Shown here: positions 1-26,912 of the stretch, piece after piece
How positions within the stretch are numbered: the stretch's first letter is position 1
Layout: each line of letters opens with the position of its first letter
Origin: Sphingomonas sp.
GTDB lineage: Bacteria > Pseudomonadota > Alphaproteobacteria > Sphingomonadales > Sphingomonadaceae
DNA: 64,000 nucleotides
Assembly (NCBI RefSeq): GCF_024508665.1
Contig: NZ_JANINP010000006.1
Span: 744,001-808,000, forward strand
Direction: 5' to 3'
Notes under the pieces: generated by a model
Database searches by the model: none
Told to the model about the DNA's origin: nothing
What the model saw: the letters and a program-made list of their open reading frames with translations, nothing else
Position numbers and translations under genes: made by a program

Positions 1-63
1 GCGCAGGACATGATAGCCATCGCGCGCCAGTTCGCCGGCGCCGATATCGACCAGGGCGCTCAT
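1..63 (-). CDS. Start of a probable PhyH-like (phytanoyl-CoA dioxygenase family) protein, cut by the window edge
   Basis: Only the first 21 codons are present. The ATG (63-61) overlaps the luxI stop codon as ATGA, so the gene is translationally coupled to luxI. The visible N-terminus contains ELARDGYHVLR, which resembles the opening helix and strand of phytanoyl-CoA dioxygenase (PhyH) Fe(II)/2-oxoglutarate oxygenases (a 'DGYhvlrg' pattern). My recollection is that sphingomonad luxI genes are often followed by such a dioxygenase, which supports the call. With so few residues and no metal ligands in view, the family assignment stays tentative; the existence of a coding start is better supported than the function. 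Confidence 0.45.
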   Translation of the reverse strand, partial: MSALVDIGAGELARDGYHVLR

Positions 64-1617: not shown

Positions 1618-1651
1618 ATTCCGATAGAACCATTTTGGCTCTTTCCAGTGC

Positions 1652-1680
1652 GTTACCCGAAATCCTCCCTCATCTGTCCA
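1652..1680 (+). promoter_or_regulatory. Predicted ECF promoter motif, distal copy upstream of fecI
   Basis: GTTACCC (1652-1658), a 15-base spacer and CTGTCCA (1674-1680). This is the weakest of the five copies because of the CTGTC box, and it lies 132 bases before the proposed fecI start. Confidence 0.4.
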
Positions 1681-1737
1681 GCGTCATGCGCGGCCCGACA
1701 GGAGTGAGGAAAAATTCGCGCGATGGACAGATTTCGC

Positions 1738-1766
1738 GTTACCCTTTTCAAGGACCGGCTTGTCTT
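1738..1766 (+). promoter_or_regulatory. Predicted ECF promoter motif, proximal copy upstream of fecI (autoregulation)
   Basis: GTTACCCTTTT begins at 1738, and TTGTCTT follows at 1760-1766 after a 15-base spacer. The box ends 46 bases before the fecI ATG, almost the same distance as at the two receptor genes (45 and 47 bases). Confidence 0.6.
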
Positions 1767-1811
1767 CCCTCGGCGGACAAGTGCGACGCGAGACAGCTCC
1801 GACGGTATTGG

Positions 1812-2384
1812 ATGATCGACGACGACGTGATCGATGCCTGGTTCGTGCGAGAGGTGCTCCCTCTCGAACGGGCGTTGACGGCCTATCTGCGTCGTAACTG
1901 GAGGATGGCGGAAGACGTGTTCGATCTGCGGCAGGACATATACGAGCATGCCTGGAACGGCGCGCGGCGCGAGCTGCCGGCCAACACGCGTGCCTATATG
2001 TACACGATCGCCCGCAACCATCTCATCAACCAGGCCAAGCGTGCGCAGATCGTCTCGTTCGACATCATCGCCGATCTCGACGGCGTCGGGACCGACTTCG
2101 ACATCTGGGAAGCCGAGCGGGCGATGACCGCCCGCGACGAGCTGCGTCATGCCAAGGCCGGGATCGACAAGCTGCCGCCGCGCTGCCGCGAAGTGGTTCG
2201 GCTGCGAAAGATCGAGGGCCTCACCACCCAGGAGGCGGCGGAGACGCTCGGCGTCTCGACCGAGACGGTCCGCCAGCAGCTCAAATATGGGATGCGGGCG
2301 CTGATCGACCACATGGTCGGCGGAACCGGCAAGATCGTGCGGCCGAAGTTCGGCAGGCGATCCGCCGGGGAGGCGCAGCCATGA
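1812..2384 (+). CDS. fecI: ECF sigma factor, FecI type
   Basis: This 190-residue protein has a sigma-70 region 2 (about residues 15-85, with LRQDIYEHAWNGARRELP and TYIARN-like elements around IARNHLINQAKR). It also has a region 4 HTH (about 125-175, LPPRCREVVRLRKIEGLTTQ then ETLGVSTETVRQQL). FecI-type sigma factors direct transcription of outer-membrane receptor genes after a signal relayed by FecR. The chosen start is ATG 1812, which gives a normal ECF length; the longer ORF back to 1635 would run through the promoter motifs. The stop overlaps the fecR start by ATGA. The putative promoter motifs before it suggest autoregulation and control of luxR and both receptors. Confidence 0.9.
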   Translation: MIDDDVIDAWFVREVLPLERALTAYLRRNWRMAEDVFDLRQDIYEHAWNGARRELPANTRAYMYTIARNHLINQAKRAQIVSFDIIADLDGVGTDFDIWEAERAMTARDELRHAKAGIDKLPPRCREVVRLRKIEGLTTQEAAETLGVSTETVRQQLKYGMRALIDHMVGGTGKIVRPKFGRRSAGEAQP

Positions 2385-3367
2385 GCAGCCCGATGAGCCG
2401 TCACCGTGCGATCGAGGACCAGGCGCTCGACTGGCTGATCCGCCGCGACGAGCCCGGCTGGTCGCAGCAGGATCAGGTCGAGCTGGCCGACTGGCTCGCG
2501 GAATCGACCGCGCACCGGACGGCTTGGCTGCGCGCCGAACATGGCTGGGCGGAAGCCGATCGGGTGCGGTCGCTCGGCGACTGGAACAGCGAGTCCGCGC
2601 ACGAGTATCGCCCGCGCAGATGGCTGCCGGCAGCGATCGCGGCGAGTCTCGTGGCCGCGGTCGGAATTGGTAGCCTCACGCTGGTGCCGCAATTCGGCGA
2701 GCATGCGTCGGTCCAGCAGGTCGCCACCGAGCAGAAGCGGTTCGACACACCGGTCGGTGGCCGCAAGGTCGTGGCCCTCGCCGACGGCAGCCGGATCACG
2801 CTCAACACCCAGTCGGTCGTGCGCGCTGCGGTTAGCGACCGGGCCCGCGACGTATGGCTGGACTCAGGCGAGGCCTATTTCGAGGTCCAGCACCGCGACG
2901 GCGAGCCGTTCGTGGTGCATGCCGGCAAGCAGACCATAACTGTCCTCGGCACCAAATTCTCGGTGCGGCGCGACAGGGACCGGGTCACGGTGAACGTCGT
3001 CGAGGGCCGGGTGCGAGTCGACGACGGCCAGGGGCTCGAAACCAGCGCGGCGATCATCACCGCGGGCGACACGGCGATCGCGCGCGGCGGCTCGACGCTG
3101 ATCACACCCAAGTCGGAGGAACGGGTCACCAACGCGCTCGCGTGGCGCGACGGGATGCTGAGCTTCAACCTCATCCCGCTGTCCGAGGTCGCGAGCGAGT
3201 TCAACCGCTACAATCGCACCCAGCTCGAGGTTGACCCGTCCGCAGCGGAGATCCCGATCGGCGGCACATTCCAGGCGTCGAACGTCGACGCGTTCGCGCG
3301 CCTGCTGCATGATGCATACGGCTTAAAGACGGAGCGCGATGGTGACCGTGTAAGAATCTCGAACTGA
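2381..3367 (+). CDS. fecR: FecR-type anti-sigma factor / signal transducer
   Basis: The 328-residue protein shows the full FecR layout. A cytoplasmic N-terminal domain (about 1-55, ALDWLIRRDEPGW) would bind the sigma factor. One membrane helix follows at about residues 82-100. Next come a periplasmic FecR domain (about 115-225, with FDTPVGGRKVVALADGS) and a C-terminal STN-like domain (about 255-328) ending in GDRVRISN. It would carry the receptor signal across the inner membrane to FecI. It is translationally coupled to fecI, and the first TonB receptor starts 77 bases downstream. A degenerate copy of its last codons appears at about 8683-8728, just before the second receptor. Confidence 0.9.
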   Translation: MSSPMSRHRAIEDQALDWLIRRDEPGWSQQDQVELADWLAESTAHRTAWLRAEHGWAEADRVRSLGDWNSESAHEYRPRRWLPAAIAASLVAAVGIGSLTLVPQFGEHASVQQVATEQKRFDTPVGGRKVVALADGSRITLNTQSVVRAAVSDRARDVWLDSGEAYFEVQHRDGEPFVVHAGKQTITVLGTKFSVRRDRDRVTVNVVEGRVRVDDGQGLETSAAIITAGDTAIARGGSTLITPKSEERVTNALAWRDGMLSFNLIPLSEVASEFNRYNRTQLEVDPSAAEIPIGGTFQASNVDAFARLLHDAYGLKTERDGDRVRISN

Positions 3368-3444: not shown

Positions 3445-6090
3445 ATGATCCGGACGCTCGCTGCGGCACTCGCCACTTCAACCTGCCTCGTCGCGCTGGC
3501 CTCTCCGGCGGCCGCACAAACGCAAGAGTTCAATATTCCTGCCGACTCGCTCCGATCGGCGCTCGACACGTTCGCTCGCCAGTCTGGCCGTCAGGTAGTT
3601 TACCGCGGTGACGAGATCCGCGGTGCCAAGTCTCCCGGGGTGCGTGGTGCAAGGACCGCGGAAGAAGCGCTGGACGTGCTCTTGGCCGGGACGGGTTTCG
3701 CGGTCCGAAGGGACTCCTCAGGGGCGTTTGCTGTTGTCCGTGTGGGAAACGCAACCATCGGCGCCGATGACGATGCGGCCTCGCCCAAGACAGACAAGGA
3801 GTTAGCGGCTGAGATTGTAGTCACAGGTACGAGGATCGCTGGCGTTGAAACTGCAAGCCCGACGATCACCATTGGTCGAAAAGAAATCGACCGCACCGGT
3901 TACTCTTCGACAGCGCAATTAATCGAAAGTATTCCCCAGAATTTCGGCGGCGTAAGCTTTGATGCCAGATTCAGTGATAATGCTTCTCTGCTGCAGGGGT
4001 CAAATCTTGAGGGGGCGTCCTCGATAGATTTGCGAGGCCTAGGTGCGCAATCCACTCTAGTTCTGGTTAATGGTCAACGCCGTGCGCCGAGCCTTGGCGG
4101 TCGTGCCGTCGATATCAATAGTATTCCGCTAACTGCCGTCGAGCGAGTAGAAATCGCCTCCGGCGGTCGTTCGGCCATATACGGCGCCGACGCCGTCGCT
4201 GGAGTCGTCAATTTTGTCCTCAAGCGAAAATTCTCCGGTTTCCAGACTGATTTTCTCGCAGGCAAAGCCGAACACGGGGCCGCAGAATACCAGCTTAGTC
4301 AAACAGCAGGGATTGACCACAAGGGTGGCGGATTCCTTATAAACTATACACACAGCCAGCAAGATCCTCTCGATATTGCGGACACTCCTTTTAACGTTTC
4401 CCCGTCCGTCGTAAATAGCATCAACAGAACGCTATTTATTGTTCCTGAGTCCAATCAGGACAGCGTGTATTTTAGTGGCGAAAAATCCCTTTCTCCTGTG
4501 GCGAAGATATATGCAGATGTGCTGTATTCAAATAGAAAGGCCATCAATAAGTTTGATATCGAATACAATGATTACGACTATCGCGCGACTAGTTCATCGG
4601 TATACCGATCGACCGATTTGAGCGTGAACGCAGGCTTGGATATTTCTCTAAGCCCTGTGTGGAACATGACCGTTTCAGGCCTGTATGATCGCAGAACTAC
4701 CAATTATAGCTCGTCGGACGTGCTGACGGGCGCCGGCGTTGGCGGTACTATCACCTCAGCTGGCGGTGATAAGAACTCGTCCACGTTGTGGGGCTTTACT
4801 GGAACAATCACAGGCTCACTGCCGACAATGTTCGGAATCGAGCCCAAGCTGGCGCTTGGCGCAGAGTACCGAACCGAATCCAACGTCATCGAGCTTGCGA
4901 CGCTTAATCGTGAGCGTGATGTGGCATCGGCCTTTGCCGAGTTGTCGCTGCCGCTGATCGGCGGCGAAGGTCGGCCTTTCATGCGGCGTCTAGACCTGTC
5001 CCTCGCGGGTAGAATCGACAATTACAGTGATGCCGGCTCAACGGCGAACCCTCAAGTGGGTCTGATCTGGGAGCCAGGCGCGGGCCTCACTGCCAAGGCA
5101 TCCTATTCGACCTCCTTTCGAGCTGCCGATCTGGTCACTGTAGCGGCCAGTCGGGTCAATCCTCCGACCCTATTCATCAGGTCTAGGCTTGACCCTACCA
5201 GCTCGACAGGGTCATCTTTGGTCTTGGAGAAGGCAGGCACAGATCCGAACATCGGCCCCGAAACCGCGAAGACATGGACCGCGAGCTTGGAGTTCAAGCC
5301 ACGTTTCGCCCCGTGGATCAAGTTCTTCGGATCGTTCACATCGGTCGACTATCGGAATAGGATCATTATACCTCTGATTGGTTCGGACGCGGAGCTTGTA
5401 CTCGTCCGCCAGAATCTTTTCGGGAACCTCATCAATCGAAATCCGGGAACTGCGGCAATCGACGCCTTGCAGGCGTCCACCGTGCCCGCGAGGATCCGGA
5501 ATCTGAGCGGAATCCCATTCAATCCGGCCACGCAGCAAATCTCTCAAGTTTTCCCAGGAATCGTGCTGGTGTCCAACCAGCTTCAGAACGTGGCACTAGA
5601 GCAATTCGAAGCCCTCGATTTCGGCTTTGACGCCGCCTCCAACCTCGGACGACTGGCAGTGAATGCGGGCCTCAACGGGACATACATTCTACGTCACCGG
5701 GAACAAATCACGGGGCAGAGTCCGTCTTTCAGCCTCCTAAATGAGTTAGGAAAATCTCCGGATTTTAGGTTCCGTGCCAATGCCGGAATTGGCTTTTCCG
5801 GAGCGCGCGCCGATGTTTTCGTCAATCACGTGCGTGGGTATTCCAACCCCCTCTCGACACCCGTCAGTTGGCTGTCGAGTTGGACCACCGTTGATCTGTC
5901 TGTGTCCTACGAGGCCCCAAAAGCTGATTCTCGCTGGCTCACCGGATGGCGCTTCAGTCTAAATGCAACAAATCTGTTCAACACTGCTCCGCCCCAATTC
6001 CTGGACGGCGTTAGTGGGATTGCCTTTGATTCAGCGAACGCAAATGGTTTGGGCCGCCAGCTGACGCTTCGTATTTCCAAGCGTTGGTAA
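3445..6090 (+). CDS. FecA-like TonB-dependent outer-membrane receptor with STN signalling domain (receptor 1)
   Basis: The 881-residue protein has a signal peptide (residues 1-25, ending AAAQ) and an STN domain (about 26-102). A TonB-box region follows near residue 123 (EIVVTGTRI), then a plug with SIDLRGLGAQSTLVLVNGQR, and a 22-strand-type barrel ending in a typical C-terminal strand (LTLRISKRW). STN-bearing receptors signal to FecR when ligand binds and import it using TonB energy. The substrate is unknown; neighbouring secreted peptidases suggest a peptide or peptide conjugate. The first 103 residues are nearly the same as in receptor 2, while the barrel is divergent and richer in AT. The stop overlaps the next peptidase start as TAATG. 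Confidence 0.92.
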   Translation: MIRTLAAALATSTCLVALASPAAAQTQEFNIPADSLRSALDTFARQSGRQVVYRGDEIRGAKSPGVRGARTAEEALDVLLAGTGFAVRRDSSGAFAVVRVGNATIGADDDAASPKTDKELAAEIVVTGTRIAGVETASPTITIGRKEIDRTGYSSTAQLIESIPQNFGGVSFDARFSDNASLLQGSNLEGASSIDLRGLGAQSTLVLVNGQRRAPSLGGRAVDINSIPLTAVERVEIASGGRSAIYGADAVAGVVNFVLKRKFSGFQTDFLAGKAEHGAAEYQLSQTAGIDHKGGGFLINYTHSQQDPLDIADTPFNVSPSVVNSINRTLFIVPESNQDSVYFSGEKSLSPVAKIYADVLYSNRKAINKFDIEYNDYDYRATSSSVYRSTDLSVNAGLDISLSPVWNMTVSGLYDRRTTNYSSSDVLTGAGVGGTITSAGGDKNSSTLWGFTGTITGSLPTMFGIEPKLALGAEYRTESNVIELATLNRERDVASAFAELSLPLIGGEGRPFMRRLDLSLAGRIDNYSDAGSTANPQVGLIWEPGAGLTAKASYSTSFRAADLVTVAASRVNPPTLFIRSRLDPTSSTGSSLVLEKAGTDPNIGPETAKTWTASLEFKPRFAPWIKFFGSFTSVDYRNRIIIPLIGSDAELVLVRQNLFGNLINRNPGTAAIDALQASTVPARIRNLSGIPFNPATQQISQVFPGIVLVSNQLQNVALEQFEALDFGFDAASNLGRLAVNAGLNGTYILRHREQITGQSPSFSLLNELGKSPDFRFRANAGIGFSGARADVFVNHVRGYSNPLSTPVSWLSSWTTVDLSVSYEAPKADSRWLTGWRFSLNATNLFNTAPPQFLDGVSGIAFDSANANGLGRQLTLRISKRW

Positions 6091-8483
6091 TGCTAATGAC
6101 AACACGCGGGCACGCCTTGGTGCTCATCGGCCTGTTGAGCTCGCTCATTTCGGCCACGGCCCTCGGACAGACGCGCTCTTACGGCGTGGAAGATCTTCTG
6201 TCCCTAGAAGATGTCGGCGAAGTTGCGCTGTCCCCGGATGGTGCACATACTGCCTTCGTTCGAGAGCGGCCGCTCAGGTCCTCGATGGTCGGGGACGATG
6301 AACTGTCCGCGGATGAGCCAGATCGGTCAGATGTTTGGATTGCGAGTGGCGACAAGATCGCTCTGAACATTACGAACGGTGGTATGGATCAAAGCAGCTG
6401 TGACTCGCCGGCTTGGTCCCCCGAGGGCGATCTGTTAGCCTTCGCGTGCCGCCGCGGGCCGAGAACGGGCTTATGGATATGGTCGAGCACCGGTTCGCTC
6501 AAGAGGATTTCGGAAAGCTCTGCTGAGGGCTTATCGTCACCGTCAGACAGACTTGTCTGGATCGACAATCAGCATGTTATGGTGGCTGTCGTATTGAGCG
6601 CCGTCCAGCGACGGCAATCTGTTCGCGTTCTGGATAGCAGCGTTCCGATCGATCTTGAAGATGCTGCCCAATCTGCTCTGTTGCTCATTGACGTCGCGAG
6701 CGGGCGCTCGAGCAAAGTCTCAACCTGGCCGAGAATACCTTCGGGAAGTGCACCGGAATGGCGGGCGTCAAGTCAGCCGTATGTGGCCCATGCTTACTTG
6801 GACAAGTTGATCGCCCCGTCGCAGGATGGCCCCCTTTCTGGGAGCGAAAACCCCGGCGAAAGCAGGTGGACGTTCGGTTATTTGTATAAGTTGAAGGTGC
6901 TGAAATTGGACGGATCGCCGATCCAGTTTAGCGGAGAGCAGCCTCAACGCATTCTTGGCTGGAGAGGGCGATCCTCGGAGGCCTTTGCGTGGCAACCTGG
7001 TGCCGCGAGATTGCTGGCAAGTGGCTTTGATGCTCAAGGTCGGAAGTCCTTGTTCCTGCTCGATGCAGCCAGCGGGTTAAGCGTTCGGGTTGGACGCGAT
7101 CCCGGCATGTTGAACCTCGTTCCGGGGCGGGTGCGGTGGCCGAAAATCGGTGACCCAATCGTCGAGATGACCGACCCCCAATCGCATCGAAGGGCTTGGC
7201 ATTCTGTTAAGCTGGATGAAAGTCGGGCCGCCATTTCTTCACAGAATGGTTCGGACGTCATCCTTGTCCATGATAGAGCCTACTGGCTAACGGACGGAAA
7301 ATTGGTCTCCAGGGAGACCGGCACGTTGCTAGCGAGTGGAATCGCCGCCGTAGTGCGGACGAACCAGAATTCGACGATGCTGGCTTTCTACTCAAATGAG
7401 CCGGCGAGACACCTCAAATATCTCGATTTCACTTCCAAAAGGATCTCAACTCATCCTGTCGGACCAAGTTGGCGGCAATTGTCATATTTGTCAAAGCGCG
7501 CAGAGACACTCACTCTTGTCGAATCCAGCGAGTCCGAAAAAGTCGTCAAAATGTGCAGGAACGACAAGCCATGCACAATTCTCGCAACGACAAATGATTT
7601 TATAAAGAAAATCGACCTGCCGAGTGCGATTGACTTATACTATAGCGGCAACAATGGACAGATGCTGCGGGGCCAAGTTCTTTTTCCGCCTCATTACGAT
7701 CGGGCACGGCGATACCCTGTCCTGACCTGGGTTTACAACGGCCTACGGCCCGCAAGTGTCGCAGACGATCCCGGTATTGTCCGGCGCTTTATTCCACTGG
7801 CATGGGACTATCAGGTCTTCCTTGGTGCCGGATATGTCGTCTTCATTCCTCAGATGCCGATAGCGCAGGTTCCGAGTCCGAACGCCGTAGGTGGAGAGGT
7901 GAGCGATCAGCTCGGTCACATGGCCGGATCGGTAGTTCCTGGTATCGACGAACTCATCGCGATGGGGGTCGCGGACCCAGATCGCCTATTTCTGTTGGGC
8001 ATCAGTCATGGCGGCTTTTCTGTAAACGCCATGCTGTCCGAGACCGGGCGCTTCAAGGCAGCCGTCTCGGGCCATGGAATTTCCGATACTTTCAGCAGTT
8101 TTGGATCTTTCAACGGCCTGCCGGGGCGGACGACGCTCATAAACGAGGGATTGGACGGCGCCGGGCAGATCCTGGATCAAACCGGCATGGGCACTCCTCC
8201 GTGGGAGGATCCCGCGCGATATCTCCGGAACAATCCGATCGTCGCGTCGAAACGGATCTACACCCCGCTGCTCATTGTCAGTGGTGAGGACGATTACATC
8301 CAGTCGCAGCAACAGCAGGAGATGTTCTCGGCACTTATGCGGCAAGGCAAGCCAGCGCGCCTGCTCACTTTCCGAGGAGAAAGCCATACGCTCGAATCGC
8401 CGACTAATATCAGGAGGTTATGGGCGGAAATCTTTGCTTGGTTCGACCGGTTCGGAGGTCAGAACACAAACCCGCGGAACTAG
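6090..8483 (+). CDS. Secreted S9-family serine peptidase (S9C-like; paired with receptor 1)
   Basis: From ATG 6090 the protein is 797 residues, with a signal peptide of about 25 residues (VLIGLLSSLISATALGQ). A large beta-propeller-like region contains VALSPDG and PAWSPEG elements. An alpha/beta-hydrolase domain is at about 540-797. A full catalytic triad is visible: Ser639 in GISHGG, Asp734 in GEDDY and His766 in GESH. Such enzymes cleave short peptides or peptide bonds in unusual settings. The N-terminal pattern is reminiscent of S9 enzymes of lasso-peptide loci, but I cannot assign that activity. The start overlaps the receptor stop (TAATG), so the two are translationally coupled and probably act on the same imported molecule. 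Confidence 0.85.
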   Translation: MLMTTRGHALVLIGLLSSLISATALGQTRSYGVEDLLSLEDVGEVALSPDGAHTAFVRERPLRSSMVGDDELSADEPDRSDVWIASGDKIALNITNGGMDQSSCDSPAWSPEGDLLAFACRRGPRTGLWIWSSTGSLKRISESSAEGLSSPSDRLVWIDNQHVMVAVVLSAVQRRQSVRVLDSSVPIDLEDAAQSALLLIDVASGRSSKVSTWPRIPSGSAPEWRASSQPYVAHAYLDKLIAPSQDGPLSGSENPGESRWTFGYLYKLKVLKLDGSPIQFSGEQPQRILGWRGRSSEAFAWQPGAARLLASGFDAQGRKSLFLLDAASGLSVRVGRDPGMLNLVPGRVRWPKIGDPIVEMTDPQSHRRAWHSVKLDESRAAISSQNGSDVILVHDRAYWLTDGKLVSRETGTLLASGIAAVVRTNQNSTMLAFYSNEPARHLKYLDFTSKRISTHPVGPSWRQLSYLSKRAETLTLVESSESEKVVKMCRNDKPCTILATTNDFIKKIDLPSAIDLYYSGNNGQMLRGQVLFPPHYDRARRYPVLTWVYNGLRPASVADDPGIVRRFIPLAWDYQVFLGAGYVVFIPQMPIAQVPSPNAVGGEVSDQLGHMAGSVVPGIDELIAMGVADPDRLFLLGISHGGFSVNAMLSETGRFKAAVSGHGISDTFSSFGSFNGLPGRTTLINEGLDGAGQILDQTGMGTPPWEDPARYLRNNPIVASKRIYTPLLIVSGEDDYIQSQQQQEMFSALMRQGKPARLLTFRGESHTLESPTNIRRLWAEIFAWFDRFGGQNTNPRN

Positions 8484-8682
8484 GGCAGAAAGCTCGTTTT
8501 ACATCGAGGCGTCTTCTCCCATGCGGCAGGGGATGCGCGGCGCCGCCCACTTCATCAGGCCTCATAGCCGAAGCAGCAGCTACTATCGCACGCAACGCCG
8601 GGATTGCACGCAGCCGCCGCCAAATAACGGAACGCAACCTGAGATCAATCCTTACTCAGACGCCATCTGCTGTGAGGCCTCC

Positions 8683-8728
8683 AGGCCTCAAGCTCAGCGC
8701 TGGGGATCGAGACGGAATACCGAACTGA
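8683..8728 (+). pseudogene. Remnant of a fecR 3' end
   Basis: The last codons read GLKLSAGDRDGIPN followed by TGA. The intact fecR ends GLKTERDGDRVRISN followed by TGA. The bases around the stop (CGAACTGAC, then TGTTACCC two or three bases later) are shared at both places. The frame is open further upstream but has no clear FecR sequence. This suggests the receptor 2 promoter and leader arose from a copy of the fecR-receptor junction. Confidence 0.5.
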
Positions 8729-8732
8729 CAGT

Positions 8733-8761
8733 GTTACCCTTTAATGTCGTTCGATTGTCTC
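8733..8761 (+). promoter_or_regulatory. Predicted ECF promoter for the second TonB receptor
   Basis: GTTACCC (8733-8739), a 15-base spacer and TTGTCTC (8755-8761), ending 47 bases before the proposed receptor 2 ATG. The sequence is very similar to the site at 3372, including the TCGATTGTC core. Confidence 0.6.
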
Positions 8762-8807
8762 GCGGTACGAGGGGCTGATGAACCGCCCTGAATTTGGGGG
8801 GGGTAAT

Positions 8808-11396
8808 ATGATCCGGACACTCGCAGCAGCACTCGCAACCGGCAGCTGCCTCGTGGCGCTGGCCACGCCCGCGGCGGCGCAGACCCGCGATTTCAACGTT
8901 CCGGCCGGTTCGCTGAGGACAGCATTAGACACGTTCGCACGCCAATCTGGGCGCCAAGTGATCTATCGTGGCGATGAAGTTAGGTCGGCAAGGTCTCCTG
9001 GCGTCCGTGGAGCGCGCACGGCGGAGGAGGCGCTCGAAGCGCTGGTCGCCGGAACCGGCTTCACGATCAGGAAAGATTCCTCGGGAGCGTTTGCTGTGGT
9101 GCGCGTGGGAAACGCGCCCGCGGCCGATAGCATCACGTCATCTGAGGAGGCTGGGGGACGCCCGAGCGATCACTCCGAAATCATCGTAACAGGTACGAAT
9201 ATCCGGGGTATCGCTCCAGTTGGAGCGCCACTTACCACGTACAATCGCAAGGATATCGAAAAGACCGGTGCTTCCGATGTGCCGCAGTTCTTCCGAACAG
9301 TTCCGCAACTGTTTTCCAATATAGACGCGTCCACTACGACAACAAACCTCGACGCCGGCAGCGGCGCTGGGAATAGTTACGGTGGCGCCTCGGCCAACAT
9401 CCATGGACTAGGATATGGCGCTACGCTCTCTCTCGTTAACGGTCACCGTTTGGCCCCCGCAGGAACAGGCGGATTGTTTGCCGATATCTCGGTGATTCCG
9501 CTTTCAGCCTTAGAACGAGTCGAGATTTTGCCTGATGGAGCCTCATCGGTGTACGGCGCGGATGCTGTTGCGGGGGTGGTAAATTTTGTAACGCGCAAAG
9601 ATTATAGTGGCGTCGAACTTAATAGTCGAATCGCCGTTCCGACGCGAGGCGGTGGAAGAGAGCTATTCGGTTCGGTTGCCGCCGGGGCCAACTGGTCTAG
9701 CGGACACGTTTTCGCATCGGCGCAAATTCAGGATGCAAACGCAATAACCGTCTCACAAAGGTCCTTTATCTTGACGGACGCTCCGGCAGGAGTGCTCGAT
9801 GGATACAACCTCGAGCCATCAACTCGCCAAATATCGACGTACGCGATTATTGAACAAAAAGTCTCAAACAACTTGCGGCTATCCGGAGACGTCTTGTTCT
9901 CACGCCGCAAGTTCCAATATTTCGTACCGACCGACACGTTCAATGACGAAAGTAACACTGGAAATGCCACACAGCTCGGCATCTCCGCGTCGCTAACATA
10001 CGATGACGGCGGCCCTTGGAGCGCAATACTAGAGGGAAGTTACTCCCGCAACGACCAGAAGACCCTAAGGAGCATTCCTTCGTTTGACTTTACGGCCCCG
10101 TTCGACGCGAAGACATATTCAAAGTCTCTCGATGGTCGTATTCAAGGCGAGTTGTTTGACATCAACGGCAAGAGCGCAAAGTTTTCGGGTGGAGCTTCGC
10201 TACGCAAAGAAAGTCTCTCGGTTGATAATGGCTCGACAATTAAGTTAATCGACCGGAACGTCTGGAGCGGGTACGGCGAGTTGTACCTACCGCTTTTGTA
10301 CGGCTCGGGTCTCGTAGAATTGTCTGCATCCGGCAGGTACGATCATTATACAGCTTTCGGCGGCGCATTTAGTCCTCGCTTAGCACTAAATTGGAGGCCT
10401 ACTTCCGCGCTAGTGATTCGTGGGAGCTTCGGGCGATCTTTTCGTGCGCCGGATCTAGTACGGATTTCACCGGTCACTTACGTGGAAACGAGCGCTTTAG
10501 ATCTACCGCTCGCATCATCACCAACCGGATATGGTACGCTGCTGACCGAGTCGCTCGGGTCAAATCCCGATTTGGGGCCGGAGCGCTCGCGCTCGATCAA
10601 TTTTGGGGCTACTTGGAAGCCGTTCCGAAGAACCTCGCTGTCGATTACATACTTCAACGTGCTATTTCGTGATCGCATCGACTACCCGAGGCGTTCGAAG
10701 GGCACTATTGACACATTCACCGATCCAGCAATTAGCTTCTTTCTCGATAGAAATCCCTCAGCGGCTGAGGTGATGCGAATCCTGTCGGAGGCCCCGTTGG
10801 CGAATAACACCGGCTTGCTTACAGGAATAACTCACCCAGTGACGCCGGACAATGTTGCTGCAATTTACCGATCTTACCCACAGAATCACGCAATTACGCA
10901 AAACTCAGGGCTTGATTTCTCAGCTACGCAGAACTTCACTCTCGGCGCATGGGCTATCGATTCAGCGTTTACTGGAACATACCTCATCAAGAACCGCACC
11001 CAGCCAGGCCCCAACACGCCTTTCACCGACTTTCTGAATATCACCTTCAATCCGCCCCGCTTTCGCGCGCGAGCAAGTGTCGACGCAACCCACAATCGCG
11101 TGTCCGTGGGGACGGCCGCTAACTTCATCAATTCATACACGAATAATCTGACGGCGCCTGTATCGCGAGTGCATAGTTGGCTAACGGTTGATTTAAACGC
11201 GCGCTACGCATTCGGAAGGCGGGATAACGATAGCGAGCGTTGGGCGATTAGTCTCAACGTCGTAAATCTCTTTGACCGGAGGCCGCCCGTCGTAAGCGGT
11301 GAATACGGTCGATTTGGGGTGGCGTTTGACTATGACTCGGCGAATGCTTCGGCGCGAGGACGGGTCGTCTCGGCTCAACTGCAAGCAAAATTTTGA
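8808..11396 (+). CDS. FecA-like TonB-dependent outer-membrane receptor with STN signalling domain (receptor 2)
   Basis: The 862-residue protein begins at ATG 8808. The start MIRTLAAALA matches receptor 1, and a G-rich ribosome-binding tract precedes it; an in-frame ATG at 8778 would add ten unlikely residues. It has a signal peptide (1-25), an STN domain (26-102), a TonB-box region near residue 124 (EIIVTGTNI), a plug and a C-terminal barrel ending SAQLQAKF. I count 85 of 103 identical residues with receptor 1 up to the end of the STN domain, then low similarity. The same FecR could therefore be addressed by two receptors with different ligands. A secreted prolyl oligopeptidase follows two bases after the stop. 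Confidence 0.92.
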   Translation: MIRTLAAALATGSCLVALATPAAAQTRDFNVPAGSLRTALDTFARQSGRQVIYRGDEVRSARSPGVRGARTAEEALEALVAGTGFTIRKDSSGAFAVVRVGNAPAADSITSSEEAGGRPSDHSEIIVTGTNIRGIAPVGAPLTTYNRKDIEKTGASDVPQFFRTVPQLFSNIDASTTTTNLDAGSGAGNSYGGASANIHGLGYGATLSLVNGHRLAPAGTGGLFADISVIPLSALERVEILPDGASSVYGADAVAGVVNFVTRKDYSGVELNSRIAVPTRGGGRELFGSVAAGANWSSGHVFASAQIQDANAITVSQRSFILTDAPAGVLDGYNLEPSTRQISTYAIIEQKVSNNLRLSGDVLFSRRKFQYFVPTDTFNDESNTGNATQLGISASLTYDDGGPWSAILEGSYSRNDQKTLRSIPSFDFTAPFDAKTYSKSLDGRIQGELFDINGKSAKFSGGASLRKESLSVDNGSTIKLIDRNVWSGYGELYLPLLYGSGLVELSASGRYDHYTAFGGAFSPRLALNWRPTSALVIRGSFGRSFRAPDLVRISPVTYVETSALDLPLASSPTGYGTLLTESLGSNPDLGPERSRSINFGATWKPFRRTSLSITYFNVLFRDRIDYPRRSKGTIDTFTDPAISFFLDRNPSAAEVMRILSEAPLANNTGLLTGITHPVTPDNVAAIYRSYPQNHAITQNSGLDFSATQNFTLGAWAIDSAFTGTYLIKNRTQPGPNTPFTDFLNITFNPPRFRARASVDATHNRVSVGTAANFINSYTNNLTAPVSRVHSWLTVDLNARYAFGRRDNDSERWAISLNVVNLFDRRPPVVSGEYGRFGVAFDYDSANASARGRVVSAQLQAKF

Positions 11397-11398
11397 AC

Positions 11399-13525
11399 AT
11401 GTCTGCAAGTTATTCCAGACTGGCGCCGGCTGGGCTTCTACTGCTTGCTGCCTCGGCTGCTCTAAATGCGCAGCCGAGGCAGGGGCTGAATTCTTTCCAA
11501 TCTGAATGTAAACAAGCGCTCGCTAACTGTGCAGATGCGTTTGCGCGCGGCATGCCTTGGCTGGCGGACCGGCGGGGGCAACGCGCGCTAGATTGGATCG
11601 ATCGTGAAAACGACCGCACCATTTCGCTGTTGCCTTTACCGGTCCCGTCGGTGCAACGTTCAAACGCTGTGTCGGGCCCTCTCGACTTTTCACCCGGGAC
11701 TGTCACGTTCAGCGGGGGATGGGCGTATCAACTGTTTCAAGATTCCACGCACCCAAGTGGTACCCTGCGTCGTCAACGGATAAGTTCATTTATTACTGGG
11801 GGAATCAATTGGGAAGACCTCCTGGACGTCGATGACCTCGGGCGGCAGTCTGGACGAACATTTAACATCCTTTCGCCGAGTGGCGAGATGTTCAGCCCTG
11901 GGCATAATCGGGTCTTGATCATATTGGCTCCCGGGGCTGACGTGGCCCGCGCCGAAGTGCGCGAATTCGATCTTGTGACAAAGGCATTTGTCCCGAACGG
12001 TCTTTCTGGCCCTGCCAACCTAGGAAAACCGTTTTGGCGAGATCAGAATTCTATCTTTTTGAACATTGGAAATGCAGATGGCACGGTCACGACAGTGATC
12101 AGGCAGCGAGGTCGGCCAGATCACATCCTAGCACGAGCTAAGGGGAGTGCAATTTATCCGGCGCGTGACAATCTAAAACGCATTCTCTTCCACATAGGCT
12201 CGGACGGCGAGCGAGTTCGTATCCTCAACGACAATGGAACTCTGTCACGCACTTCGTTCCCATCGGGGTGGCGATTTATGGGCATTGTCTATCAGGGCAG
12301 AGCCATCTTTCAGCTAGATAAGCCTTGGCGCGACAAGGTGCGCTCCTTTCCGAGCGGCTCCGTCGTTGCCGCTTCGCTAGATTTATTCCATTCGGGTAGG
12401 ATCAGCGCTGAGCTCATTGTGAATCCGGACGCAACAAAGTCGATCGACAGGATCGTCGCGTCGCGCAACGGAATTACTATTGTCGGCCAGGAGGCCGGCC
12501 AAGGCACGGTTCGCACGCTGTCCAGAGTTGATGGCAAGTGGATTTTGAGGCGCGTCCCCTTTCCCTTGTTCGGGTCAATGGATACCCACCCCGGCCTCGT
12601 CGATATCGAGACCGGGCGAACATTTGTCGAGTTCCAGAGCTTCAATGTCCCCCCAACGTTGTTTGAGGTCGATATCCGCCATGCAGTCGCGCAGGTCGTT
12701 AGACGGCAAGCGGCGGATAAAGGATTGAGCGAAATAATCGTGGAACGGCGTTACGCTATATCGCCAGATGGCACACGAATACCGTATATGGTTGCTGGTC
12801 TCCGATCCACGCTCACAAAGCAAGCACCCTTAATTCTGGAAGCTTATGGGGCGTATGGTAACAGCATACCGGCCCTTTACGATGCTCAACTGCTGCGTTC
12901 ATGGATTCTCAAAGGCGGCGCCTACGCTTTCGCCCAAATTCGGGGTGGGGCAGAATTCGGACCCTCATGGCACGTGACTGGTCTAAAGAGGCGCCACACC
13001 TACGAGGATTTTATCGCAGTCGCGCAGAATCTAGTCAGCCGCAGTTATACGGAGCCCTCAATGCTAGGTATCCGTGGTCATTCCGCGGGAGGGGCTTTGG
13101 TGCTGGTGGCTTTGAATATGAGGCCAGATCTTTTTAATGCCGTAGTGGCAGAGAACCCGGTGACAGACCTGTTTAGGATGGATTTAACGCAAACTGGTGA
13201 CGCGGGGCAACGTGATGAATGGGGCGATCCAGCCAATGCCGCGGATCGAGCCTTCCTGGCGGAAACGTCCCCAATTCAAAATATGCGCCTCGATGGTGAA
13301 ACAGCTCCTCCGTTTCTTCTAACTTCGACGACAGATTTTCGTGTCCATCCGGCGATGTCTCGTTGGTACGCCGCGAAGCTCGAACATGCGGGCAGGCCGT
13401 TCTTCTTTCATGAAGACCCAGAAGGTGGCCATGAAATCGGCTTCGCGAATTATAGGAAGAACCGCGAACTCGAATACGCGTATTTCTGGCAGCGACTAGA
13501 CGTTTCGCGAAACTCCAAGAAGTAG
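11399..13525 (+). CDS. Secreted prolyl oligopeptidase family (S9A) serine peptidase
   Basis: From ATG 11399 the protein is 708 residues. It has a signal peptide (about 1-24, LLLLAASAALNAQ) and an N-terminal stretch typical of S9A enzymes (RALDWIDRENDRT). A propeller region follows, then a C-terminal hydrolase domain with the POP-like run IRGGAEFGPSWH. The catalytic triad is Ser562 (GHSAGG), Asp646 (STTDFRVHP) and His678 (EGGHEIG). Prolyl oligopeptidases cut peptides of up to about 30 residues after proline. It follows receptor 2 by two bases and precedes a third S9 peptidase, so the cluster looks built to import and degrade peptides. The secretion signal is unusual for classic POP but seen in proteobacterial relatives. 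Confidence 0.85.
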   Translation: MSASYSRLAPAGLLLLAASAALNAQPRQGLNSFQSECKQALANCADAFARGMPWLADRRGQRALDWIDRENDRTISLLPLPVPSVQRSNAVSGPLDFSPGTVTFSGGWAYQLFQDSTHPSGTLRRQRISSFITGGINWEDLLDVDDLGRQSGRTFNILSPSGEMFSPGHNRVLIILAPGADVARAEVREFDLVTKAFVPNGLSGPANLGKPFWRDQNSIFLNIGNADGTVTTVIRQRGRPDHILARAKGSAIYPARDNLKRILFHIGSDGERVRILNDNGTLSRTSFPSGWRFMGIVYQGRAIFQLDKPWRDKVRSFPSGSVVAASLDLFHSGRISAELIVNPDATKSIDRIVASRNGITIVGQEAGQGTVRTLSRVDGKWILRRVPFPLFGSMDTHPGLVDIETGRTFVEFQSFNVPPTLFEVDIRHAVAQVVRRQAADKGLSEIIVERRYAISPDGTRIPYMVAGLRSTLTKQAPLILEAYGAYGNSIPALYDAQLLRSWILKGGAYAFAQIRGGAEFGPSWHVTGLKRRHTYEDFIAVAQNLVSRSYTEPSMLGIRGHSAGGALVLVALNMRPDLFNAVVAENPVTDLFRMDLTQTGDAGQRDEWGDPANAADRAFLAETSPIQNMRLDGETAPPFLLTSTTDFRVHPAMSRWYAAKLEHAGRPFFFHEDPEGGHEIGFANYRKNRELEYAYFWQRLDVSRNSKK

Positions 13526-13634
13526 TGCGTAACCTGATCGAGTTGCATGGCTTCCTTGTACCCCCCAGCGACGTCGAATGCGCTAGACAGATCAGTGGCG
13601 GACCTTGGCAATTCGTATTGGGAAGGAAGTTTTC

Positions 13635-15908
13635 TTGCGAAAGGTTTTCCTTTGGGGCGGAATCATCCTGGCGTGCTGTAGTGTGCCGGTTGCCGCTCAA
13701 GCGCCGTCGAGATTTAATGTTCGAGACTCAATCTCGCTTGAGCGCATCTACGATTTAAACGGTCATTCCGCTTCAGATCGATCAGAATTTGCGCTTTTTA
13801 GTCCCGACGGAACGATGTTCGTTATCGAAACACGCCGTGGGTCTATGGCTGACGGCGAACTGGAAACGAAGCTCTATCTCTTTCGACGGACCGTGAACGA
13901 CGGCGGGCATTGGGCTGTTGCTGGCGTAGCGTTTCGATCAAAGGCCTCACGGGAGGAGCAAATCCCGAACGGGTTCGTATGGATATCAAATAGCGATATT
14001 GGATTTTTGAAGCCAGATGAGCGGGGACGCTTTCAGGCATTTGCAATCGACGTGCAATCCTCCCGTTTACGACAGCTAACGCACTCGCGAACGTCAGTGG
14101 CTTCGTTTGCAATGTCGGGCAAAACGTTGGTCTATTATGCATACGATGAGGCACCGGCGATCGCTGCTGCGCACGCAGTGACGAACCAGAATATTCGCGA
14201 GATTCTTGCTCCTCCGCCCACGAACTCGGACACCCTGTCCCTCTATTCATCGTCTTTATCTTCAAGCGGTTCTACGCGGAAGATCGGCCCGAGCGTCTAC
14301 TTGGCGTGGCCTTACCGGCAAATCTGGCCAGCGCCCGATGGCCGTTTTGCGGTGACGCTCTGGCCCGCAATTGATGCTCCCAGCGAATGGGCGGATTATC
14401 GCGTTCGCGATTACGCACAGTTCAGCTTTAGTCCGGAGCGGCGTAGGTCGGATCCGACGTCCAAGGATCTATCCTTTCGACATCGCTATGTGCTGATCGA
14501 TTTGAGGACTGGCGTCCTGCGACCGTTGATCGACGCTCCGACGGGATTTTTTTCGAACAATGGAACACCCAGAAAAGTTTTCTGGTCGACCGATTCGAAG
14601 AGCGTCATTGTGAGCAACACCTACCTCTCTTTGATCGGTGTCCGGCCGGAAGAAAGGGTGTTGCGGACAAGGTATCCAGCCACAGTGGAGGTGAATATCG
14701 AAACTCAAAGCCTCAACTTGGTTCTGCGCGAAAGCGGTCTATCGGATGAGGACGCATTGCAAAATAAGCGCATGGCTTTCCGGATCGATGATTTAAGCTT
14801 CGACGGCGCACGATTAACCGCACTGAGGACGTCCCGGAATCCTCAATCGGATGCGCTGGAACAGCACAGTGATCGCTACCAGAAGACGGGTGACACGTGG
14901 AGATTGCTCGATACCAGATTGGCTAAAAAGGGGCCTGCCGCACCGTTTCTCAAGAGCGGCCTCAATGAGAGGCCCAAAATCTTCGAGATAACGTCGATGG
15001 GCCCGGAGGTCATATTCGATCCTAACCCCCAAGCTGAGCGGTATAGTTTTGGCCGTGTCGAAGCGATCGAATGGACTGACCCGGCCTACCAGGTCCGGTG
15101 GAAGGGATCGGTCACTTATCCGCCTGGTCACAAGCTTGGACAAAAACATCCGCTGATCGTGCAGACTCACGGCTTCAATCCGACCGAATTCCTGACTGAT
15201 GGGCCGGACGGATCCAGCAGTGCCATGGCGGCGCAACCCCTGGCCAATGCTGGGTTCGTCGTCCTGCAGGTCGAGGACAATAGCCAAGCGATGTCTGACC
15301 GTGCAAATGAGGTCGATCGTTTTGTTGAAGGCTACCGAGCGGGTATCGCGCACTTGGTGCAACGGGGACTCGTCGACGAGGCAAATATTGGCATTATCGG
15401 CTGGAGCCGGACCGGCCTCTACACGGCGATGCTGATTGCCAAGTACCCAAAACTCATGAAAGCAGCGACAATTGCGGATTCAGTGCAGCCCGGTTATCTG
15501 ACAACCAATCTCCTGCTCTTGGGCCAAGGCCCCGACGTCTATGGCGACATCGCTGGCCTCTCCGTCACCAGGCCGGGATCGCCCCTTCAAGATTACGTGG
15601 CAGACCCGTTTTATAATCTAGCGAAAACAGAAACCGCCGTGAGACTTGAGGCTGACACGGGCGACAATGGACGCCCTGACGCACTACCTATGTGGGAAAC
15701 CTTTGCCGTGCTGAAGCGGGCGGGCCGAAAGGTGGATTTCGTCGTGTTTCCCGATGGGAGCCATAGCCAGATGATGCCTCGCGAACGCTTGGAATCGCAG
15801 GGGGGAAATGTCGACTGGTTCAGTTATTGGCTGATGGGGAAAAGATCAAAATCAATTGCAACCACGACTGACTACGCCCGCTGGGATGCACTAGGAAGCC
15901 GTCAATAG
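13635..15908 (+). CDS. Secreted S9-family peptidase, possible lasso-peptide isopeptidase-like enzyme
   Basis: A TTG at 13635 is preferred as the start because a strong GGAAGGAAG site (13621-13629) lies just before it and a clean signal peptide follows (KVFLWGGIILACCSVPVAAQ). This gives 757 residues. The C-terminal hydrolase domain has Ser591 in GWSRTG and His710 in DGSH. The acidic residue lies in the DNGRPD stretch about 28-33 residues before the histidine and is not certain. The arrangement (FecIR, TonB receptor, S9 enzyme) and the propeller start (SLERIYDL, FSPDG) recall the lasso-peptide isopeptidase family (AtxE2), but this is an inference. The LACC in the signal peptide could mark a lipoprotein. 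Codon use is like that of the other cargo genes. Confidence 0.75.
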   Translation: MRKVFLWGGIILACCSVPVAAQAPSRFNVRDSISLERIYDLNGHSASDRSEFALFSPDGTMFVIETRRGSMADGELETKLYLFRRTVNDGGHWAVAGVAFRSKASREEQIPNGFVWISNSDIGFLKPDERGRFQAFAIDVQSSRLRQLTHSRTSVASFAMSGKTLVYYAYDEAPAIAAAHAVTNQNIREILAPPPTNSDTLSLYSSSLSSSGSTRKIGPSVYLAWPYRQIWPAPDGRFAVTLWPAIDAPSEWADYRVRDYAQFSFSPERRRSDPTSKDLSFRHRYVLIDLRTGVLRPLIDAPTGFFSNNGTPRKVFWSTDSKSVIVSNTYLSLIGVRPEERVLRTRYPATVEVNIETQSLNLVLRESGLSDEDALQNKRMAFRIDDLSFDGARLTALRTSRNPQSDALEQHSDRYQKTGDTWRLLDTRLAKKGPAAPFLKSGLNERPKIFEITSMGPEVIFDPNPQAERYSFGRVEAIEWTDPAYQVRWKGSVTYPPGHKLGQKHPLIVQTHGFNPTEFLTDGPDGSSSAMAAQPLANAGFVVLQVEDNSQAMSDRANEVDRFVEGYRAGIAHLVQRGLVDEANIGIIGWSRTGLYTAMLIAKYPKLMKAATIADSVQPGYLTTNLLLLGQGPDVYGDIAGLSVTRPGSPLQDYVADPFYNLAKTETAVRLEADTGDNGRPDALPMWETFAVLKRAGRKVDFVVFPDGSHSQMMPRERLESQGGNVDWFSYWLMGKRSKSIATTTDYARWDALGSRQ

Positions 15909-16098
15909 GAGCGCCATCAATCCTCTGGCCGACGCGTCTTTCAATGACAGCGCGAAATCACGTGCTCAGGACTTGGACACCTCGTAGACCCCAAGAAGGC
16001 GTTCAGTGTCCCCACCCGGTCTCTGACGCTCGAACTCCAATTCAGCGATTTTTGAGCCAGCCCGCGAGTGAGTGACTCGGATGCGGGCGGAGGCTCGC

Positions 16099-18141
16099 AT
16101 GACCCCGACCAAGCTGCTCATTGGCCAGATCCTCGTTGTGCTCGCGATTATCGTCGCGAGCATCTGGACGGCGACGCAATGGGCCGCCGCGAGCCTCGCC
16201 TATCAGCCCGAACTCGGCCCGGCCTGGTTCACGCTGTTCGACACGCCGGTCTACCATCCATGGTCGATCTTCCCGTGGTGGTTCTCGTTCGACGCCTATG
16301 CGCCGATCATCTTCGACGAGGCGGGCGCAATCGCGGCAACCGGCGGATTTGTCGGCTGCGGCGCTGCAATCGTCGGCTCGGTGTGGCGGGCACGGCAGTC
16401 GAGCAATGTCACGACCTACGGCTCGGCGCGCTGGGCGACGAACCGGGACATTGGCGCCGCTGGACTGCTCGGCGACAGCGGCGTCGCGCTCGGCCGGATC
16501 GGCAGCCGCGATCTCCGCCATGACGGTCCCGAACATGTCATGGCGTTCGCGCCGACGCGATCGGGCAAAGGCGTGGGCCTCGTTGTCCCGACCTTGCTCA
16601 GCTGGACGGGCTCGGCGGTCGTCCACGACATCAAGGGCGAGAACTGGCAGCTGACCGCCGGCTGGCGCGCGAAGTTCTCGCACTGCCTGCTGTTCAACCC
16701 GACCGACGCGCGCTCGGCCCGCTACAATCCGCTGCTGGAAGTCCGTCGTGGAACCGACGAGGTCCGCGACGTCCAGAATATCGCCGACATTTTGGTGGAC
16801 CCCGAAGGCGCGCTCGAACGCCGCAACCACTGGGAGAAGACCAGCCACTCGCTGCTGGTCGGCGCGATCCTCCACGTCCTTTACGCCGAGCAGGACAAGA
16901 CGCTCGCCCGTGTCGCGACCTTCCTGTCCGATCCCCAGCGTCCCTTCGCCGCGACGCTGCGGCGAATGATGACCACCAACCATCTCGGGAGCGAAGATGC
17001 GCCGCTCGTCCATCCCGTCGTCGCCTCGGCCGCGCGCGAGCTGCTCAACAAGAGCGAGAACGAACGCTCGGGCGTGCTGTCGACGGCGATGTCGTTCCTC
17101 GGCCTCTATCGCGATCCGACTGTGGCGGCGGTCACGTCACGCTCGGACTGGCGCATCGCCGATCTGGTCGAAGCGCCACATCCGGTCTCGCTTTACCTCG
17201 TCGTGCCGCCGTCCGACATCAGCCGGACCAAGCCGCTGATCCGCCTGGTGCTCAACCAGATCGGCCGCCGCCTGACCGAGAAACTCCACGCCGCCGGCCC
17301 GAATGCCGCATCGGGCGCGAGCCGGCACCGCCTGCTGATGATGCTCGACGAGTTCCCCGCGCTAGGCCGACTCGACTTCTTCGAGACGAGCCTCGCCTTC
17401 CTCGCCGGCTATGGCGTTCGCGCCTTCCTGATCGCGCAGAGCCTCAACCAGATCGAGAAAGCTTACGGCGAGCACAACGCGATCCTCGACAATTGCCACG
17501 TCCGCATTGCCTTCGCGACCAATGACGAGCGCACCGCCAAGCGCATCTCCGACGCGCTCGGCACGGCGACCGAGCAGCGCGCGATGCGCAACTATGCCGG
17601 TCACCGGCTGGCGCCGTGGCTCGCGCATGTCATGGTCAGCCGGCAGGAAACGGCCCGAGCGCTGCTGACGCCGGGCGAGGTGATGCAGCTCAGTCCCAGC
17701 GATGAGCTGGTGCTGGTCTCCGGCCACCCGCCGATCCGCGCGAAAAAGCTGCGCTATTTTGAGGATCACCGGTTCACCGCCCGCGTCCTCCCCGCTCCGC
17801 CGCTCGATACCGATGGCTATGCCGACCGTCCCGCCGCGCGGCCCGACGACTGGACCGGCCAAGTGCGGACCATCGACATGCGGCTCGCCGGCGATGCCGA
17901 CGGTGACGATGGCAGCGACACCGGCGGCCTCGAACAGGCGCGGCACCCGGCGCACGAAATCGAACCCGCCATCGCCATCGAACCGGAGGTCGCCGATCCG
18001 CTCGGCCTCGGCGAGGATGATGGCGACCAGGCGGCCGAACGTCGGGCGATGGACCGCGTACAAGCGCTCGGTGCCGCGCGCACCGTCTACGGCATCGACG
18101 CGGCCTCGGGCCGCCCCGACGACCTGCAGCTGGGGTTCTGA
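16099..18141 (+). CDS. virD4: Type IV secretion coupling protein VirD4/TraG
   Basis: ATG 16099 is chosen because GGAGG lies five bases upstream. The protein is 680 residues. Two N-terminal membrane segments (about 8-27 and 75-95) anchor it in the inner membrane. A Walker A motif (APTRSGKGVG, about residues 150-160) and a Walker B motif (LLMMLDEFPALGRL, about 412-425) define the ATPase. Coupling proteins bring the relaxase-DNA complex to the mating channel. The gene heads a dense operon with an RHH protein and trbBCDE, all with overlapping or near-overlapping ends. The relaxase that usually lies upstream is absent here; the preceding genes are the cargo peptidases. Confidence 0.92.
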   Translation: MTPTKLLIGQILVVLAIIVASIWTATQWAAASLAYQPELGPAWFTLFDTPVYHPWSIFPWWFSFDAYAPIIFDEAGAIAATGGFVGCGAAIVGSVWRARQSSNVTTYGSARWATNRDIGAAGLLGDSGVALGRIGSRDLRHDGPEHVMAFAPTRSGKGVGLVVPTLLSWTGSAVVHDIKGENWQLTAGWRAKFSHCLLFNPTDARSARYNPLLEVRRGTDEVRDVQNIADILVDPEGALERRNHWEKTSHSLLVGAILHVLYAEQDKTLARVATFLSDPQRPFAATLRRMMTTNHLGSEDAPLVHPVVASAARELLNKSENERSGVLSTAMSFLGLYRDPTVAAVTSRSDWRIADLVEAPHPVSLYLVVPPSDISRTKPLIRLVLNQIGRRLTEKLHAAGPNAASGASRHRLLMMLDEFPALGRLDFFETSLAFLAGYGVRAFLIAQSLNQIEKAYGEHNAILDNCHVRIAFATNDERTAKRISDALGTATEQRAMRNYAGHRLAPWLAHVMVSRQETARALLTPGEVMQLSPSDELVLVSGHPPIRAKKLRYFEDHRFTARVLPAPPLDTDGYADRPAARPDDWTGQVRTIDMRLAGDADGDDGSDTGGLEQARHPAHEIEPAIAIEPEVADPLGLGEDDGDQAAERRAMDRVQALGAARTVYGIDAASGRPDDLQLGF

Positions 18142-18144
18142 CCG

Positions 18145-19544: not shown

Positions 19545-19547
19545 CCC

Positions 19548-22578: not shown

Positions 22579-22586
22579 AGTCGCAT

Positions 22587-22612: not shown

Positions 22613-22624
22613 TCGCGACTGTCG

Positions 22625-25461: not shown

Positions 25462-25481
25462 CCCGCGTGACGAGCTGAGGC

Positions 25482-25509: not shown

Positions 25510-25515
25510 CGTCTC

Positions 25516-26909: not shown

Positions 26910-26912
26910 GCC

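Follow-up and report, generated by a model that had tools for sequence, protein, structure and literature searches.

A FecIR-receptor-S9 peptidase module without adjoining lasso biosynthesis genes in Sphingomonas sp., possibly a mobile receiver for the peptides of other cells

The locus described here lies in a stretch of 64,000 nucleotides (the window, C6:744001-808000, contig NZ_JANINP010000006.1) from Sphingomonas sp., the genome of which comes to 4.64 Mb in 8 contigs. From 1635 to 15908, and on the + strand throughout, the open reading frame (ORF) list gives a FecI sigma factor, a FecR anti-sigma factor, two TonB-dependent receptors (R1 and R2) and three S9 peptidases (P1, P2 and P3) in the order FecI, FecR, R1, P1, R2, P2, P3. 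This module is best read as a variant of the known isopeptidase-type lasso peptide arrangement, lacking the biosynthesis genes. Pfam bears out the families of its proteins: P1, P2 and P3 each have an S9 catalytic domain, and both receptors have STN, plug and barrel domains, the STN score of R1 (33.1) being above the gathering score of 28.4 and that of R2 (25.9) slightly below it. The genes of the module are:

1635..2384, + strand: FecI-type extracytoplasmic function (ECF) sigma factor (Sigma70_r4 54.6 bits), the true start being probably further in than 1635
2381..3367, + strand: FecR anti-sigma factor (PF04773 77.6 bits, DUF4880 36.3 bits)
3445..6090, + strand: R1, TonB-dependent receptor with an STN signalling domain (Pfam; relatives in FecIR-receptor-S9 modules)
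6084..8483, + strand: P1, S9C-type peptidase (NF033523 88 bits, cut-off 400), its start overlapping the R1 stop
8778..11396, + strand: R2, TonB-dependent receptor with an STN-like signalling domain (Pfam; receptor relatives)
11393..13525, + strand: P2, exported peptidase of the prolyl oligopeptidase (POP) type, S9A (4hvt, PF02897, PF00326), its start overlapping the R2 stop
13605..15908, + strand: P3, exported divergent relative of lasso isopeptidases (NF033523 133.9 bits; 5txc; profile control; fold)

A preliminary description of this DNA had placed one peptidase after R1 with an overlap and the other two after R2, each with a signal peptide, and the ORF list agrees; the gap between P2 and P3 is ~80 bases, and the N-terminus of each peptidase carries a Sec-type signal peptide as judged by eye. 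The R1-P1 overlap is ambiguous because an ATG overlapping the stop by 1 base is also present. At loci with lasso genes a 7-base overlap of receptor stop and AtxE2-like start is possible in 48 of 71 distinct junctions, and junctions of this kind (in L097-L121 and L181-L261; L numbers denote compared stretches and G numbers genomes) often read Trp-stop/Met-Val. Scans for promoters and for terminators both gave results below the shuffled mean.

All three peptidases had been called lasso-isopeptidase-like. The label is apt for P3, holds for P1 only in a loose sense and is wrong for P2. Sequence, profile control, tree and fold agree in relating P3, though it has diverged, to AtxE2 and SpI-IsoP. Its best match among solved structures is AtxE2 (5txc, E 2.5e-16), and the first three of its only five solved matches are AtxE2 and SpI-IsoP. 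A search with the AtxE2-family model NF033523, a check proposed at the outset, places no peptidase of the module above the curated cut-off, P3 nonetheless standing nearest to lasso isopeptidases. Against a profile of 79 lasso-linked AtxE2-like enzymes (some of them near-copies, P3 excluded) it scores 169.2, compared with 72.9 on a profile of 14 generic S9 enzymes, and the same preference is seen in the C-terminal part alone (134.9 against 68.0) and in the N-terminal part (38.6 against 7.4); scores from 79 rows and from 14 rows are not strictly alike, and the fair yardstick is a leave-one-out control, in which the generic profile wins for 14/14 generic S9 enzymes, with margins of 124 to 539 bits. 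In a quick S9 tree, from which 6 rows had been removed (2 truncated own rows, 2 duplicates, 1 fragment and 1 mis-started ORF), P3 pairs with the lasso-cluster peptidase of Asticcacaulis excentricus M6 (support 96), and the two together fall in with the lasso isopeptidases (support 86). That peptidase, encoded on plasmid pASEM-1 (L086), has the GWSRTG nucleophile elbow of P3, although there, unlike in the window, asparagine-synthetase-like and B2 genes adjoin. Across 24 aligned sequences Ser601 and His720 of P3 do not vary, which gives two residues of a putative Ser-His-acid triad; an AtxE2-family enzyme would carry such a triad in an alpha/beta hydrolase domain following a beta-propeller. Cyclase-type lasso genes occur in 14 of the 18 stretches around P3 relatives, and the 4 that have none are among the weaker matches. 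Scanning genome contigs with six 8-residue patterns from P3 returned 1 relative, at 30% identity, and no near copy, which is weak evidence of absence.

Structure prediction had also been proposed as a check, and for P3 its outcome agrees in part. The catalytic domain is fair and the propeller poor (mean pLDDT, the predicted local distance difference test, 58), and because AtxE2-like rows went into building the model, the fold evidence is not independent. The top 8 Foldseek matches are chains of AtxE2 and SpI-IsoP, and in VIA-align, limited to the top 1000 Foldseek chains, the top 4 rows (AtxE2/SpI-IsoP) have Z of 26.8-27.6, the next S9 enzyme reaching 24.1.

P2 is a prolyl oligopeptidase, having an S9_N propeller (PF02897, 32 bits, cut-off 24), an S9 catalytic domain (PF00326, 136 bits), a POP structure as its best solved match (4hvt, E 3e-53) and only 18.6 bits on NF033523. 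P1 is of an S9C-type family with members both lasso-linked and lasso-free; its best solved match is a generic S9C enzyme (8wt1), Ser641 and His768 are invariant and Asp737 nearly invariant in 22 sequences, and it scores 284 on a profile of 7 stand-alone P1-like enzymes, 227 on one of 9 lasso-linked P1-like enzymes, 160 on the generic S9 profile and 107 on the AtxE2-like one. Of the 20 stretches around relatives of P1, lasso genes occur in 9, and 3 (L102, L103, L107) have a receptor and no lasso match. Receptor matches lie 5-8 kb from the P1 relatives in L092 and L095, those of L095 towards a neighbouring lasso cluster (L108). In L093 (3979-12169) a P1-like peptidase stands near an ATP-binding cassette (ABC) exporter with a C39 peptidase and its HlyD-type partner, hinting at a link of the P1-like family to other peptide clusters. 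The idea of three lasso isopeptidases is thus rejected, P2 being a POP and P1 mixed by NF033523, solved matches and profiles. Best similarity to generic S9C or POP enzymes, which had been named as the result that would tell against the isopeptidase label, is found for P2 and nearly so for P1 but not for P3, the only one of the three with lasso isopeptidases rather than generic S9 enzymes as nearest relatives.

The two receptors share a nearly common head on rather different bodies. Between R1 and R2 the STN domains are identical at 65/83 positions (78%) and the barrels at 175/588 (30%), a contrast not seen in the receptor pairs of L087 (STN 34/82, barrel 258/594) or L196 (STN 28/82, barrel 154/566). 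Because the STN domains are alike and the barrels have diverged, the single FecI-FecR pair probably responds to two distinct ligands. The search for R1 and R2 relatives covered 298 family genomes, and 40 stretches were fetched round the best-scoring places; at most 3 candidates were scored per genome in this and in the NF033523 search, so that the counts they give are lower bounds. An S9 peptidase immediately follows the receptor in 38 of the 40 (the exceptions being L193 and L211) and lasso cyclase or B2 genes are present in 30. Judged on such sequence likeness, R1 and R2 appear to lie near the lasso-type receptor family.

What is missing at the locus is the producing side. As in an isopeptidase-type lasso cluster, FecI, FecR, a TonB receptor and the peptidase form one unit, but adjoining precursor, B and cyclase genes are absent, as the preliminary description had already noted and as the ORFs, Pfam and the PF13471 and PF00733 searches bear out. 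At E <= 0.001, PF13471 (B2) matches genome-wide only at C2:422303 and C6:429612, NF033537 adding a sub-cut-off match with an internal stop at C3:360113 (15.9 bits), and PF00733 (the cyclase family) matches on contig C6 only at 427428 and, weakly, at 301140. The closest B2 and cyclase genes found are about 315 kb from the module. A precursor and an asparagine-synthetase-like gene to the left of position 1 had been raised as a possibility; a lasso cluster immediately left of the window is rejected on the PF13471/PF00733 matches and the ORFs of L029. A precursor motif learned from lasso loci gives 0 candidates in the window, the motif finding a candidate in 65/86 B2-bearing loci and so missing about a quarter of precursors. 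A Y-P leader motif was rejected as a precursor signature, not being a motif of this lasso group.

Three lasso-like proteins are encoded at the distant locus at C6:427-431 kb (L030 7404-11355): one resembling a cyclase (NF033535 269 bits, cut-off 525), one resembling the chaperone PqqD (NF033530 45 bits, cut-off 70) and a B2 protein (NF033537 56 bits, cut-off 33), the PqqD/B2 pair being split and accompanied by an NTP_transf_5 nucleotidyltransferase; in the L030 stretch no isopeptidase or receptor match was found and no precursor recognised. At C2:422 kb (L009 1381-1863) there is a further lasso B2-like protein of 160 residues (NF033537 77.6 bits), the gene for which looks solitary because the sole PF00733 match on contig C2 is at 56876.

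Modules of FecIR, receptor and S9 enzyme without lasso biosynthesis genes (orphans) recur in other genomes, so that the arrangement, taken at first for a novel use, is not unique to the window. Cyclase and B2 are both missing from 10 of the 40 best receptor-relative stretches (L181, L182, L184, L218, L186, L187, L189, L196, L202 and L211), of which L181, L182, L184 and L218 come from the single genome G473, L196 and L202 are neighbouring stretches of G333, and L187 ends at a contig end just past the peptidase. Starting from the enzyme, NF033523 finds at least 70 places above the cut-off in at least 59 of 397 genomes of the family. Contexts were read for 66 of the 70 listed places: 57 have cyclase and B2, 5 cyclase only (L201, L207, L232, L242 and L246, some at contig ends) and 4 neither, one of these (L225) having a B2 match 24 kb off, which leaves 3 orphans. 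In L186 (6846-16154, genome G163) a bona fide AtxE2-family enzyme (NF033523 677 bits) shares an operon with FecIR and a receptor, and a tyrosine integrase gene lies downstream of the module; G163, rated 100% complete in 2 contigs, has no B2 match by PF13471 or NF033537; in the other 6 orphan-bearing genomes checked, B2 genes are present elsewhere in the genome.

Two further arrangements were seen alongside. In the present genome, L031 (5627-10128, C2:289-294 kb) holds another pair of TonB receptor and S9 peptidase, the peptidase having the top NF033523 score of the own-genome frame scan (116 bits); that stretch showed no match for FecI, FecR or lasso genes, and the receptor is without an STN match. 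On a plasmid of Asticcacaulis sp. DW145 (L087 1-15552) a single ABC transporter gene separates two FecIR-receptor-isopeptidase sets, only one of which has cyclase and B2 beside it in the stretch shown.

Set beside the AtxE2 and SpI-IsoP clusters, in which FecI, FecR, TonB receptor and isopeptidase adjoin the A, B and C genes, the module is alike in FecI, FecR, STN-type receptor and exported S9 enzyme with conserved Ser/His, P3 being the nearest by sequence and fold. It differs in having no precursor, B or cyclase genes, two receptors per FecIR pair, three S9 enzymes of different kinds, one of them a POP, a P3 far under the family cut-off and a place on a conjugative element. The orphan modules L186, L189, L196, L202, L181, L182, L184, L218, L102, L103 and L107 are of the same gene-set kind with no lasso gene in the stretch, but in them, unlike in the window module, each FecIR pair comes with a single receptor and a single peptidase, and the enzymes of L186 and L189 and the first of L196 score 528-934 on the AtxE2 profile against 169 for P3. 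The best solved matches of P1 and P2 are generic (8wt1 and 4hvt), although in the window their genes directly follow FecA-type receptors.

The module looks like cargo of an integrated conjugative element, a setting that the preliminary description had missed. To its right lie conjugation genes, an integrase and a tRNA, and to its left a luxI/luxR pair:

60..662, - strand: LuxI-type autoinducer synthase (PF00765 73.9 bits)
740..1510, - strand: LuxR-type autoinducer-binding regulator (PF03472 48.1 bits, PF00196 31.8 bits)
16072..29982, + strand (two genes at 22625-24405 opposite): conjugation genes traG, trbB, trbE, trbL, trbI and others (Pfam, ORFs)
30311..31591, - strand: tyrosine integrase, right end of the element (PF00589, PF13356, PF22022)
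31717..31803, - strand: tRNA-Leu(CAG), probable integration site (ARAGORN, Rfam RF00005)

Leftwards of the module come luxI and luxR, followed by an anti-restriction gene of the ArdC type, one of the ParB type and one for a DUF3363 protein (L029 86-2170), DUF3363 being what we take to be the family of annotated rlxS relaxases. A relaxase, a coupling protein, type IV secretion genes and an integrase at a tRNA are therefore all present, as expected of an integrative conjugative element. No repeat of the tRNA region of at least 13 bases was found in window positions 1-31500 or in the 14 kb left of the window, and shared k-mers did not locate the left end; the element may extend farther left than searched. 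Two plasmids of sphingomonads carry related traG-trb genes, and between their rlxS and traG stand other, variable genes, TIR-domain and antitoxin-type genes among them; since the module lies upstream of traG, where related plasmids vary, it is in an apparent cargo slot. On the element the luxI/luxR pair (60-1510) adjoins the module in divergent orientation; the synthase probably serves regulation of the element, and it may have some link to the module, quorum sensing possibly governing either transfer or the module.

The foreign-peptide scavenging role proposed at the outset becomes, with similar orphans elsewhere, the best reading, and more specifically the module would be a mobile receiver that takes up the knotted peptides of other cells, most probably lasso peptides or something closely analogous, a proposal to which we give about an even chance. 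On this proposal R1 and R2 would use their unlike barrels to bind two distinct external peptides, whose import TonB energy would drive, and the near-identical STN heads of the two receptors would signal to the single FecR-FecI pair, so that the operon is switched on only with ligand. P3 may then open the isopeptide ring of the R2 ligand in the periplasm and hand its product to P2, which would cut it up, with P1 playing an equivalent part for the R1 ligand. Oligopeptidases of the P2 type prefer short linear peptides.

Several results weigh against the receiver proposal. No peptidase of the module attains the NF033523 cut-off, an S9 enzyme of the same genome (C2:293289) scores 116 bits on that model against 106 for P3 in the same frame scan, and two generic S9 enzymes reach 211 and 219 on the AtxE2-like profile, above P3. 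Long branches underlie the tree placement of P3, and its model has a poor propeller and AtxE2-like rows behind it. P1 scores higher with its stand-alone relatives than with its lasso-linked ones, and its 8 best relatives (L089-L096) have no directly adjoining receptor and no lasso match in the stretch. In a midpoint-rooted FastTree of 92 of 113 receptors, left after thinning, R1 and R2 fall outside the main lasso-receptor clade, R1 grouping with L187. Orphans are rare among bona fide AtxE2 enzymes, 3/66 contexts (L186, L189 and L196). Finally, as described in excerpts of PMC9266682, known isopeptidases are highly specific for the cognate peptide and need its threaded form; given such strictness, any receiver would be matched to certain neighbours.

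A rival reading is a more ordinary use, in which the receptors import common oligopeptides or protein fragments for the S9 enzymes to digest and the isopeptidase likeness reflects shared S9 ancestry. P1 and P2 do resemble S9C and POP enzymes, P3 is under the curated cut-off, and the same genome has the receptor-S9 pair of L031 with no FecI, FecR or lasso match seen in its stretch. However P3 favours the AtxE2 profile where 14/14 generic S9 enzymes favour the generic one, the L031 receptor is without an STN match, and receptors of the R1/R2 type lie beside lasso genes in 30 of the 40 stretches, so that we regard generic scavenging as somewhat unlikely. A home system split in two, with the module serving the peptide of the host's own lasso-like locus about 315 kb off, would account for the cyclase-like protein, PqqD-like chaperone and B2 encoded there; it is very unlikely given that no precursor was recognised at that locus, that its split PqqD/B2 pair with NTP_transf_5 is unlike the isopeptidase-linked clusters seen, and that the module sits on a conjugative element.

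The FecIR/FecA-type architecture brings to mind a siderophore-like use, with metal- or cargo-loaded peptides imported and the cargo freed by the peptidases, and excerpts of PMC9266682 and PMC11006600 put this hypothesis forward for isopeptidase clusters generally. No metal-uptake or siderophore enzyme was found among the 9 and 10 region proteins scanned with Pfam, and here the idea seems rather improbable. Least probable of all, and barely to be entertained, is peptide defence, in which the module would be protective cargo of the mobile element and destroy antimicrobial peptides, lasso or related, on the way to their targets. The TIR-domain and antitoxin-type genes in the same slot of two relatives would be fitting company for it, but dedicated import receptors are odd for such a role, and in the excerpted text of PMC9266682 isopeptidase-linked lassos, astexin-1 apart, are without antimicrobial activity.

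For the receiver proposal, the existence of modules for uptake, sensing and cutting only, one in a genome in which no B2 was found, implies that another cell can be the source of the peptide. We found no report of orphan lasso receptor-isopeptidase modules in the openly licensed PMC literature, subscription literature being mostly outside that scope. The role of isopeptidase-linked lasso peptides is termed enigmatic in excerpts of PMC9266682. It may be, and we put this forward tentatively, that alpha-proteobacterial lasso peptides are public goods or signals, and that a mobile element spreads a kit for receiving and consuming foreign ones, made up of two antennas with a shared signalling head, a sigma switch, an isopeptidase and an oligopeptidase. 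The question of what isopeptidase-linked lasso peptides are for then becomes directly testable in strains with orphan modules.

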